Origin: Thalassobaculaceae bacterium
Lineage (GTDB): Bacteria; Pseudomonadota; Alphaproteobacteria; Thalassobaculales; Thalassobaculaceae
NCBI GenBank assembly: GCA_029212785.1
Contig: JARGOG010000007.1
Location: forward strand, 1-64,000
Length of the DNA: 64,000 nt
Direction: 5' to 3'
Shown here piece by piece: positions 12,240 to 18,602 of this stretch (the first letter of the stretch is position 1; each line of letters starts with the position of its first letter). The notes below the pieces were generated by a model. That model was not told the origin of the DNA and did no database searches. It was given only the letters and a program-made list of their open reading frames with translations. A program made the position numbers and the translations under genes.

Positions 12240-13214
12240 ATGCGGGTCTGCATCTACGGCGCCGGAGCGATCGGCGGCTATCTCGGTGTGTCCCTGGCCG
12301 AGGCGGGCTGCGAGGTCAGCCTCGTGGCACGGGGGCCGCATCTGGCGGCCATTCGGGAGAACGGCCTGACTCTCCTGAAGGATGGAGAACGGCGCACGGT
12401 CCGGCTCAAGGCGTCCGAGGACCCGGCCGAGCTCGGTCCCCAGGACCACGTTATCGTGGCGCTGAAGGCCCATTCGGTACCGGCCGTGGCCGCCGGGATG
12501 ACGGCACTGATCCATGACTCCACAACCGTCGTGACCGCGGTGAACGGTGTGCCATGGTGGTATTTCCACGGTCTCGGCGGCACCCTCGACGGTACCCGGC
12601 TGGAAAGCGTCGACCCGGGCGGGGTGCAATGGGATGTCCTTGGCCCGCAGCGGGCGATCGGCTGCGTGGTCTATCCGGCCTGCGAGATCGAGGAGCCGGG
12701 GGTGATCACCCATCAGGACGGCGACCGATTCACCCTGGGCGAGCCGTCGGGCGAGAAGACCGACCGGGTGACGGCCCTGTCCGAGGCGATGCGAGCCGGC
12801 GGGCTGAAGGCGCCGGTGCGGCCGCGCATTCGCGACGAGATTTGGGTGAAGCTGTGGGGCAACCTGTCCTTCAACCCGATCAGCGCGCTGACCGGCGGCA
12901 CGTTGGAGGAGATCTGCCGCGATCCCGAGACCCGCGCCGTCGCCCGGGCGATGATGTTGGAGGGGCAGGCGATCGGCGAGGCGCTGGGCGTGAAGTTCGC
13001 CATCAATGTCGATAAGCGCATCGCCGGGGCCGAGGCAGTGGGCGCGCACAAGACATCCATGCTGCAGGACCTGGAGCGGGGGCGGGCGATGGAAATCGAC
13101 GCGCTGGTCGCCGCGGTGCAGGAACTTGGCCGTCTGACCGGGGTTGCGACCCCGACCATCGACGCGGTGCTGGGCCTGGTGAAGCTGCGCGGCAGGACGG
13201 CGGGGTGCTACTGA
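12240..13214 (+). CDS. Ketopantoate reductase (PanE/ApbA) family oxidoreductase
   Basis: 324 aa. The N-terminal Rossmann motif GAGAIGGYLG binds NADP(H), and VALKAHSVPA is typical of the family. The C-terminal helical domain carries the conserved Lys/Asn region (EIWVKLWGNLSFNPISALTG) and the E residue near ERGRAMEIDAL. PanE reduces 2-dehydropantoate to pantoate for CoA synthesis, but many paralogues reduce other 2-keto acids. Cotranscription with a CoA ligase fits either CoA supply or a dedicated organic-acid pathway. ATG lies 4 nt after the ligase stop. Confidence 0.87.
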   Translation: MRVCIYGAGAIGGYLGVSLAEAGCEVSLVARGPHLAAIRENGLTLLKDGERRTVRLKASEDPAELGPQDHVIVALKAHSVPAVAAGMTALIHDSTTVVTAVNGVPWWYFHGLGGTLDGTRLESVDPGGVQWDVLGPQRAIGCVVYPACEIEEPGVITHQDGDRFTLGEPSGEKTDRVTALSEAMRAGGLKAPVRPRIRDEIWVKLWGNLSFNPISALTGGTLEEICRDPETRAVARAMMLEGQAIGEALGVKFAINVDKRIAGAEAVGAHKTSMLQDLERGRAMEIDALVAAVQELGRLTGVATPTIDAVLGLVKLRGRTAGCY

Positions 13215-13287
13215 CGTCCCGCGTCCTCTCGGGTGTCGACCCCGGATTTGTCTCCATGATTCGGAAAAACGGAACGACACCGAAAAA

Positions 13288-13316
13288 TTGTTTTCGACGT
13301 TTACCGAATCTTTAGA
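13288..13316 (+). promoter_or_regulatory. Possible sigma70-type promoter for the small Gln/Gly-rich gene
   Basis: TTGTTT at 13288-13293 and TTTAGA at 13311-13316 with a 17-nt spacer, in a locally A/T-rich patch 55 nt upstream of the 107-aa gene. Weak matches to consensus; position and spacing are the main support. Confidence 0.3.
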
Positions 13317-13370
13317 TCGTTCGGCGATAGTCCCCTCGAACAAACGATAATGTGTTGAGGAGGACGTCCC

Positions 13371-13694
13371 ATGGCGATCAGCGGTATCGGTGCCGGAACC
13401 GGGTTGGGCTATCAGGCCCTGAGCCAGCTTCAGGGCCTGCAGGCGGGCCAGGCGCTTGGCGGCGGTCAGGGTACCGGCCAGGGCGGCAGCCAGGCGGCGC
13501 AGCAGACCGGCTCCCAGGGTACGCGCATCCAGGGCCCGTCCCAGTCGGCCGCCTCCACCAACATCACCCCGAATGCCGTGGAAGAGGTCGAGACGGACAA
13601 CTCCCGCACGTCGCAGACCGCATCGTCCACCGCCACCTCGCCGGCGCCGCCGGCCGGCTCCGGCCGCGGTCAGATCGTCGATATCTCCGCCTGA
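13371..13694 (+). CDS. Small Gln/Gly/Ser-rich protein of unknown function
   Basis: 107 aa. ATG 13371 follows GAGGAGG at 13358-13364, a strong ribosome-binding site. The N-terminus (MAISGIGAGTGLGYQAL) could form a short amphipathic stretch. The middle is low complexity (GQGTGQGGSQAAQQTGSQG), and the C-terminus ends in SGRGQIVDISA. There is no signal peptide, membrane span or recognised domain. Third-position GC and the strong RBS argue it is real. Likely intrinsically disordered. It sits alone between an A/T-rich promoter-like region and a strong hairpin. Not recognised. Confidence 0.65.
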   Translation: MAISGIGAGTGLGYQALSQLQGLQAGQALGGGQGTGQGGSQAAQQTGSQGTRIQGPSQSAASTNITPNAVEEVETDNSRTSQTASSTATSPAPPAGSGRGQIVDISA

Positions 13695-13734
13695 TACAGG
13701 CCCGTTTTCCACGTATTGCGCGCTAGCCGCGCTC

Positions 13735-13783
13735 CGTACGATCCTTCGGCCAGTCCCCTCCCAAACGGCCGAAGGATCGTACG
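13735..13783 (+). promoter_or_regulatory. Perfect 17-bp stem-loop enclosing the RBS of the M20 gene
   Basis: Left arm CGTACGATCCTTCGGCC (13735-13751), 15-nt loop, right arm GGCCGAAGGATCGTACG (13767-13783). The arms are perfect reverse complements. The right arm contains the GAAGGA ribosome-binding site (13771-13776) and ends directly before ATG 13784, so in mRNA the RBS would be fully paired. No T-run follows. It may be a translational switch, an operator for a dimeric protein at DNA level, or an RNA-binding site. Confidence 0.7.
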
Positions 13784-15103
13784 ATGAATTCCCCAGCCAC
13801 AGGCACGGCTCCAGGACAGCTCGACCCGGCACTCGCCAAGCGTATCACCGATGCGGTTGACGCGGCGTTCGACAGTCAGATTGCCTTCACCAAGGATCTA
13901 GTCTCCCGCCCGTCAATTCGTGGCCAGGAGCATCTCGCCCAGGACCTGATGGCCGAAGCCATGGCCAAGCGCGGCTACGCGGTCGACCGCTGGCTGGTCC
14001 GCGAGGACGATATCAAACACCACGAAGGCTTCTCGCCGATCAAGGTCGACTATGCCAACGCCTGGAACGTTGTCGGCACCCACCGTCCGCGCAACGAGAC
14101 CGGCCGCTCGCTGGTGCTGAACGGCCATGTGGACGTGGTACCGGAAGGCCCGCTCGACATGTGGACGAGCCCGCCCTATCAGCCGCGCATCGACGGCGAC
14201 TGGATGTACGGCCGCGGTGCCGGCGACATGAAGGCCGGCGTGGTCTCCAACATGTTCGCGCTCGACGCGCTCAAGGCGGCGGGTGTTCAGCCGGCGGGCC
14301 GGGTCCATCTGGAAAGCGTCTGCGAGGAGGAGAGCACCGGCAACGGCGCGCTCGCAACATTGGTCCGCGGCTACACCGCCGAGGCCTGCCTGATCAGCGA
14401 ACCGTCCTCCGGTACCGTGAACCGGGCGGTGATGGGGGTGTCCTGGTTCCGTGTGCATGTGCGCGGCTTCCCGGTCCATGTGAAGGAGGCTGGCAGCGGC
14501 TCGAACGCCATCCTGGCGGCCTATGACCTGATGAAGGATCTGAAGGAGCTGGAGGCGCGCTGGAACGCCAAGAAGGGCGAGACCAAGAACTACAAGGACG
14601 CCAAGCATCCGATCAACATGAACGTCGGCAAGATCGAGGGCGGCGATTGGGCCTCCTCTGTGCCGGCCTGGTGCACCTTCGACTGCCGGGTGTCCTATTT
14701 CCCGGGCTTCAAGCCGCAGGAGATGGCCCGCGACATCGAGGATACGATCCGCAAGGCCGCGGCCAACCATCCGTTCCTGTCGAACAGCCCGCCGGAGGTC
14801 GAGTTCAACGGCTTCTTCACCGAGGGCTACGACCTGGAGCCGGGTACGGAGGCCGAATTGACGCTCGCCCGCCAGCACGAGATGGTGGCCGGCACGCCGC
14901 TCGAGGAGCGGATCGCGACCGCCTATATCGACAGCCGGGTCTTCGTGCTCTACGCGGGCATCCCCTGTCTGGTCTACGGGGCCCATGCGGAGAATGTGCA
15001 CGGCTTCGATGAGCGGGTGAGCATCGAGTCGATCCGCGAGTCGACCAAGGCGATCGCCTTGTTCGTCGCCGACTGGTGCGGCACCGAACCGGTCGCGGCT
15101 TAG
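13784..15103 (+). CDS. M20 family (ArgE/DapE-type) metallopeptidase/deacylase
   Basis: 439 aa. Dinuclear-zinc M20 motifs are complete: GHVDVVP (His115, Asp117), GRGAGDMKAG (bridging Asp148), CEEESTGNG (catalytic Glu181/Glu182), ISEPSSG and a late HAENVHGFDE His ligand. The dimerisation lid occupies about 210-330. The family hydrolyses N-acyl amino acids or dipeptides in the cytoplasm; this long version (about 430-440 aa) is usually annotated only as ArgE/DapE deacylase. The start is fixed by the RBS in the preceding hairpin. It seems monocistronic; the downstream gene is convergent. Confidence 0.88.
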   Translation: MNSPATGTAPGQLDPALAKRITDAVDAAFDSQIAFTKDLVSRPSIRGQEHLAQDLMAEAMAKRGYAVDRWLVREDDIKHHEGFSPIKVDYANAWNVVGTHRPRNETGRSLVLNGHVDVVPEGPLDMWTSPPYQPRIDGDWMYGRGAGDMKAGVVSNMFALDALKAAGVQPAGRVHLESVCEEESTGNGALATLVRGYTAEACLISEPSSGTVNRAVMGVSWFRVHVRGFPVHVKEAGSGSNAILAAYDLMKDLKELEARWNAKKGETKNYKDAKHPINMNVGKIEGGDWASSVPAWCTFDCRVSYFPGFKPQEMARDIEDTIRKAAANHPFLSNSPPEVEFNGFFTEGYDLEPGTEAELTLARQHEMVAGTPLEERIATAYIDSRVFVLYAGIPCLVYGAHAENVHGFDERVSIESIRESTKAIALFVADWCGTEPVAA

Positions 15104-17968: not shown

Positions 17969-18526
17969 TTATCGGATCAGCGTGTCGGGAAGTGTGTCGA
18001 GCGCGCGGCGGAACGGCGCGGTGTCGCCGAGGCCGCGGGAAACCACCAGTCCGCCATGGATCGCGACCATGGCCGCCTCCGCTCGGCGCGCGGCGTCCGG
18101 TGCGGCGTGCCCGGCCTCTTCGGCGATCCGCGCCAGGATCTGTGTCAGGGTGGTGAGCCGCTGGGCCACCCGGTCGCCGAAGACGTCGCGTGCATCGCCG
18201 ATGGCGAACAGTTCGAGCAGACAGGACCGCTTGCCACCGCTGTAGAAATCGTCGAACGCGGCGACGACGCGGCGGGCCTTCTCCTCGGGGGCTGCGTCAC
18301 TCGCCAGCACCGGGCCGAGCGTATTCGCACCCCAGGCCTCCGCCTGGTCGAGCACGGCTTCGGCCATGTCCTCCTTCCCGTTGGGGAAGTAGTGATAGAG
18401 GCTGGAGCGGCCGAGCCCGGTCGCGCCCGACAGCAGCTTCAGGCTCGCTCCTTCGTAGCCGTGGCGCCGGAACACCTCGCCTAGTCTATCTACAATCTCT
18501 TCGCGCGGGACGGCGGGGCGCGGCAT
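17969..18526 (-). CDS. TetR/AcrR family transcriptional regulator
   Basis: 185 aa from ATG 18526, chosen because GGAGG lies 7 nt upstream. The helix-turn-helix is at about residues 6-55 (VFRRHGYEGASLKLLSGATG, then LGRSSLYHYFPNGKEDM). The C-terminal ligand domain (about 60-185) resembles the YcdC/C-terminal-16 type found next to GST or reductase genes. It would repress its own gene and the downstream GST/flavoprotein genes through the two matching palindromes (inference). The ligand is unknown, perhaps an electrophile. Confidence 0.88.
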   Translation of the reverse strand: MPRPAVPREEIVDRLGEVFRRHGYEGASLKLLSGATGLGRSSLYHYFPNGKEDMAEAVLDQAEAWGANTLGPVLASDAAPEEKARRVVAAFDDFYSGGKRSCLLELFAIGDARDVFGDRVAQRLTTLTQILARIAEEAGHAAPDAARRAEAAMVAIHGGLVVSRGLGDTAPFRRALDTLPDTLIR

Positions 18527-18544
18527 CCATGGACCTCCAACTAG

Positions 18545-18558
18545 ACCGAACGATCGAT
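18545..18558. promoter_or_regulatory. Operator-like site upstream of tetR
   Basis: ACCGAACGATCGAT shares 12 bases with the palindrome before GST and lies 19 nt upstream of the TetR start codon. Its right half-site is imperfect (TCGAT rather than TCGGT), so binding could be weaker. Consistent with autoregulation. Confidence 0.5.
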
Positions 18559-18602
18559 ATAGAGTCCGGACCCTCTTTCGCAACCGGTTTCGGGCTGTGG
18601 GA

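Follow-up and report, generated by a model that had tools for sequence, protein, structure and literature searches.

Hairpins that silence translation on read-through transcripts are known chiefly from insertion sequences and from phage genes. In IS10 and IS50, the transposase is subject to fold-back inhibition on read-through transcripts. In bacteriophage T4, long transcripts of genes e, soc and 49 and of I-TevI that begin upstream fold in such a way that the Shine-Dalgarno (SD) sequence or AUG is hidden (PMC3014915, PMC2988022). For gene e and I-TevI, a promoter in or beside the 5' strand of the stem gives rise to mRNAs that lack this strand and are translated (PMC3014915, PMC2988022). Occlusion of the ribosome binding site (RBS) in E. 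coli adhE and in lambda cIII is relieved by RNase III (PMC5371410).

The stretch of DNA analyzed here, designated the window, comprises 64,000 nucleotides from a Thalassobaculaceae bacterium whose nearest named relative is Thalassobaculum litoreum DSM 18839 (94% protein identity). The hairpin described below, its leader elements, and the two genes that flank it all lie on the + strand. An inverted-repeat search found two arms of 17 nt each, 100% complementary: the left arm CGTACGATCCTTCGGCC (13735..13751), which is the complement of the SD region, and the right arm GGCCGAAGGATCGTACG (13767..13783), with a loop of 15 nt between them (13752..13766). A previous sequence-only reading had reported this perfect 17-bp stem and its loop, and had placed GAAGGA in a right arm that ends directly before an ATG; both observations are correct. 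The candidate SD sequence GAAGGA occupies 13771..13776, 7 nt 5' of the start codon ATG (13784-13786), and the last base of the repeat is 13783. The range given in that reading, 13735-13786, contains the repeat but takes in the ATG as well. The start codon belongs to a gene of the M20/ArgE-DapE family (13784..15103) that encodes a 439-residue deacylase with matches to Pfam families PF01546 and PF07687; its score against NCBIfam model NF005306, "ArgE/DapE family deacylase", is 645.7 bits, where the cut-off is 376.

The next longest perfect inverted repeats in the 64-kb window, allowing loops of up to 40 nt, have 12-bp arms. By our own arithmetic, a perfect 17-bp repeat with a loop of at most 20 nt is expected by chance about 1e-4 times per window. 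RNA folding of the region 13690-13830 gave a z-score of -3.9, with 0 of 200 shuffled sequences equally stable, and the isolated hairpin of the window has a predicted energy of -32.1 kcal/mol.

Four Thalassobaculum genomes hold an orthologue of the deacylase and make up the alignment used here: the window's own, T. litoreum (G002), and two others, G003 and G004. The hairpin is found at the same position in all four. Conservation of the pairing among orthologues had been proposed in the sequence-only reading as a check, and it holds for every one of these genus members, while orthologues from other genera lack the structure; searches of 36 genomes of the family and of 385 sampled across the class gave no match to the repeat core in another genus. 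The fraction of invariant positions across the four species is 94% in each arm, 81% in the segment 13719-13734, and 80% in the deacylase gene. It is 47% in the loop, 48% in a 107-residue gene 5' of the hairpin, 42% from the stop codon of that gene to a -35-like hexamer described below, and 28% in the intergenic stretch 5' of the 107-residue gene. The conserved block reaches past the hairpin in the 5' direction, starting 19 nt before the stem at TTGCGCGCnnGCCGCGC, and its upstream segment includes TTGCGCGC..GCCGCGC. A small GC inverted repeat, GCGCG-N5-CGCGC, is located at 13718..13732; its arms are invariant and two of its loop bases vary.

Standard pairing is retained at 17 of 17 stem positions in all four species. 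Fifteen pairs never vary, both substitutions within the arms produce G.U pairs, and no compensatory double changes occur among the four sequences. Predicted hairpin energies for the four species are -32.1, -33.0, -31.7, and -33.9 kcal/mol. An additional A-U pair extends the stem to 18 bp in G003 and G004, while in T. litoreum a rearranged apex, with one bulged U and CCGUU/AACGG, leaves a stem of about 20 pairs. The distance between arms drifts by 1-2 bases across species. By our own count, only one of the six possible single changes to a G-C pair gives G.U, and the chance that two of two changes would do so without selection on RNA pairing is estimated at roughly 0.03-0.1. The two G.U-preserving changes may thus be taken as supportive, not decisive, evidence for selection on RNA pairing. 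The loop does contain CCCCTCCC, the pyrimidine run to which the sequence-only reading had drawn attention as possibly pairing elsewhere, but no partner was found to support such pairing, and the length of the loop is not constant.

A riboregulator, a protein-binding RNA, and a DNA operator had all been named as possible roles, with no choice made among them. If the element were an operator, its arms would be two inverted transcription-factor sites lying over the -10 region and the RBS, and the folding of the RNA would be incidental. The nearly invariant sequence of both arms is consistent with this, as is the roughly palindromic character of each arm in itself (CCGTACGATCCTTCGG, judged by eye to be symmetric at 12 of 16 positions). 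In contig C1 of G003, moreover, perfect 12-bp repeats resembling self-operators occur directly before regulator genes that we named, by eye, ArsR-like (987438-987467) and LysR-like (852917-852947). However, 17 contiguous symmetric base pairs exceed the length usually read by dimeric regulators, the spacing of the arms drifts by two bases, both substitutions preserve pairing as G.U, and a conserved second site was not found in the genus. With up to 2 mismatches allowed in the 17-mer, the arm had no further copy in the window's own genome. Further copies outside this locus were likewise absent from the four Thalassobaculum genomes at 0-1 mismatches, and on this ground an operator with a regulon, or a repeated element, was rejected. 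The sole regulator found among the neighbor genes tested, a TetR gene at 17969-18583 that lies beyond a GST gene, has no known link to the deacylase, and the GST gene was not found beside the deacylase in G004, although G004 keeps the hairpin. Arm changes restricted to G.U, a loop of drifting length, and a nearly constant energy appear to favor nucleic acid folding over an operator, modestly so with four sequences, and we consider the operator improbable, though it is, with the RNA switch described below, one of the two main rivals to our preferred reading.

The accessibility of the SD sequence was modeled by partition-function folding of transcripts with varied 5' ends in the four species. 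For transcripts starting at least 45 nt 5' of the ATG, the predicted probability that the SD sequence is unpaired is 0.00-0.01, and in all four species it is 0.00 once the start lies at least 50 nt away. The proposal that the stem hides the RBS is therefore upheld, by prediction, for transcripts that start 5' of the left arm, on which this probability is about zero. Occlusion is predicted to be partly relieved once the 5' end passes approximately 13746, and with the 5' end 34-38 nt from the ATG, where transcripts from the candidate promoter described below would start, the probability is about 0.2-0.5. The ATG itself is predicted to be mostly open in long transcripts, and the block would therefore fall on the SD sequence. 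The hairpin is real, conserved, specific to the genus, and, as predicted from sequence, RBS-hiding. It resembles the T4 gene e type in having the SD sequence within a stable stem on long transcripts, as predicted for four species. In contrast to the phage genes, which are timed by late promoters, the gene here is a metabolic gene of a bacterial chromosome, and its internal promoter is a prediction only. Hairpins of this kind are already known, and this instance appears to be new.

Only one promoter-like pair, TTGCGC-N15-TACGAT, occurs within the conserved block. The -35-like hexamer TTGCGC (13716..13721) forms the sharp 5' edge of the block, and the -10-like hexamer TACGAT (13737..13742) lies inside the left arm. 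Both are invariant in all four species, 7 of 12 positions agree with the E. coli consensus, and the TTGC resembles -35 sites of tRNA genes in the genus. The spacer of 15 nt is atypical: across the window and 1.6 Mb of G003, pairings of TTG with TANN(A/T)T are commonest at a distance of 17 nt (45, vs. 14-32 at other distances, and 28 at 15). Pairs found upstream of tRNA genes in G003, of a form resembling TTGCNN / TANGTT and with C-rich DNA after them, include TTGCCA-17-TAGGTT, TTGCAT-17-TAGGTT, TTGCAA-17-TACGTT, and TTGCTT-18-TATGTT; they serve as a rough guide only, the scoring having favored TTG and a 17-nt spacer. A consensus scan found no promoter at the leader. A promoter motif built by expectation-maximization was set aside after it had drifted into codon periodicity, and two promoter-like matches of the form CTTGCGCGC...GATACGTT apparently fall within coding sequence. 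TTGCGC-N15-TACGAT is a plausible if weak candidate for the deacylase's own promoter. Transcription would be predicted to start at about 13749, inside the left arm, and the local mRNA would consequently lack most of that arm. The sequence-only reading had set against its own proposal a transcription start within 13735-13767, and this may prove to be the case. In our view, such a start would explain the hairpin, not abolish it, because silencing would then fall on transcripts from upstream and spare the local ones.

A source of upstream transcripts may be present. The 107-residue gene (13371..13694), found in the four Thalassobaculum genomes, runs in the same direction as the deacylase, ends with a stop codon 40 nt 5' of the stem, and is a possible origin of read-through. 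Its protein is rich in Gly, Gln, and Ser, with the C-terminal sequence GRGQIVDISA, and has no match in Pfam or NCBIfam; beyond the four genomes of the genus, a single weak match (E-value 5e-5) was found, in a genome from another family. The gene order SMP30, acyl-CoA ligase, panE, 107-residue gene, hairpin, deacylase is kept in four of four Thalassobaculum genomes. None of these neighbors was found beside the deacylase orthologues of other genera in the family (53-75% identity), which are also without the hairpin. The hairpin is seen only where the deacylase lies behind the co-directional cluster that runs from SMP30 to the 107-residue gene. At 75-2213 the window also encodes a 712-residue protein with RTX calcium-binding nonapeptide repeats (PF00353).

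Among the explanations considered, the one we favor, at a confidence somewhat short of even, is that the hairpin acts in cis in the mRNA and keeps the deacylase from being translated on transcripts begun upstream, while a promoter overlapping the left arm supplies local mRNA that escapes. Read-through from the SMP30, acyl-CoA ligase, panE, and 107-residue genes would enter the deacylase gene; the resulting mRNA would fold, its SD sequence would be hidden, and it would go untranslated in the cell. The local promoter would start a translatable mRNA at about 13749, and expression of the deacylase would in this way depend on that promoter, as with T4 gene e and I-TevI. The model agrees with where the promoter-like block lies, with the presence of a co-directional cluster upstream, and with the restriction of the hairpin to that gene order. 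Points against it include the 15-nt spacer, the agreement with the E. coli consensus at no more than 7 of 12 positions, the negative consensus scan, the lack of a compensatory double change among four sequences, and the only partial SD accessibility (0.2-0.5) predicted for the short transcript. Silencing confined to impinging read-through transcripts, as proposed here, would be a likeness to IS10 and IS50, but no transposon or terminal repeat is seen at the locus.

The conserved pairing would also fit with an RNA switch on a long leader, transcribed from upstream, kept off by the hairpin, and opened by RNase III, an RNA-binding protein, or a trans-acting RNA. Relief of RBS occlusion by RNase III is documented for adhE and cIII (PMC5371410), in which, as predicted here, secondary structure of the leader hides the RBS, and the invariant GC repeat at 13718-13732 might belong to a structured leader. 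However, at about -32 kcal/mol the stem is too stable to open thermally, a genome search with the 17-mer, allowing up to 2 mismatches, gave no further arm copy that might serve as an antisense RNA, and no Rfam family is matched. Opening by ribosomes on a leader peptide is made unlikely by an upstream ORF that stops 40 nt 5' of the stem and a leader frame that varies. We regard the switch as unlikely, while giving it some weight.

Several described classes of leader were considered as well. Like RNA thermometers and translational riboswitches, the locus has its SD sequence sequestered in the 5' leader; unlike them, it has no recognized ligand domain, no Rfam match, and a stem too stable for melting at growth temperature. 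A thermometer would call for a marginally stable stem that melts close to growth temperature, and the perfect stem of -32 kcal/mol speaks against one. No Rfam family was found at 13200-14200, where a sub-threshold match elsewhere in the range (E-value up to 1) is presumably due to chance. A leader peptide of the erm/cat type, which would need a conserved small ORF across the stem, and translational coupling were rejected: in the window a TTG-initiated ORF (13716-13787) ends at the TGA of ATGA, but indels in the loop, whose length varies, shift the frame between species. An intrinsic terminator was also rejected, since the stem is followed by ATGAATTCC, with no U run, and does not appear in the results of a terminator scan. 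Long perfect stems are plausible substrates for RNase III, and one situated between co-directional genes might be an element for mRNA processing or stability, such as an RNase III site separating the messages of the 107-residue protein and the deacylase, with no regulatory occlusion of the SD sequence. This would leave unexplained, in four of four species, both the SD sequence within the right arm and the exact abutment on the ATG, and the stem has no U-tract after it, hence is no terminator; we judge a purely processing role very unlikely.

In 2.4 Mb of G003, five perfect repeats of 10 bp or longer carry an SD-like sequence in the right arm and precede an ATG with a coding-like ORF. Three of them are convincing in appearance, namely those at the deacylase, at a methionine-synthase-like gene (161506), and at a 257-residue gene (1096345). 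In the second of these (G003:C1:161471-161500), the SD sequence lies in a perfect 12-bp hairpin reaching around the start codon, and three Thalassobaculum species share its CCTCCC/GGGAGG core. In the third (G003:C1:1096311-1096343), a ACTCCCTCCCG/CGGGAGGGAGT hairpin lies one base 5' of the ATG; the window's own genome has a similar hairpin of altered sequence. SD-hiding stems of 6-8 bp show no excess in the genus over reversed controls (30/8/2 vs. 30/12/4). A broad class of SD-hiding hairpins was therefore rejected for the genus, in which short stems are not enriched and the notable cases are limited to a few long stems. G003 also contains dispersed long hairpins with arms of 27-29 bp, CGTCATCCCGAACTTGTTTCGGGACCT, and differing loops, at 446536, 248266, 888961, 4488409, 4576037, and other positions; these are a repetitive element family of that genome.

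We suggest, more tentatively, that at the deacylase a single DNA segment could serve both as the -10 region of a promoter and as the anti-SD strand of a hairpin, so that a chromosomal metabolic gene would carry a T4-style silencer, acquired upon placement of the gene behind the co-directional cluster in Thalassobaculum. Closely packed head-to-tail genes and leaky terminators make bacterial chromosomes a setting in which the silencing of read-through matters. If the explanation is true, this conserved chromosomal case, with its perfect stem of 17-18 bp, would show that ordinary metabolic genes share a trick with phages and insertion sequences.
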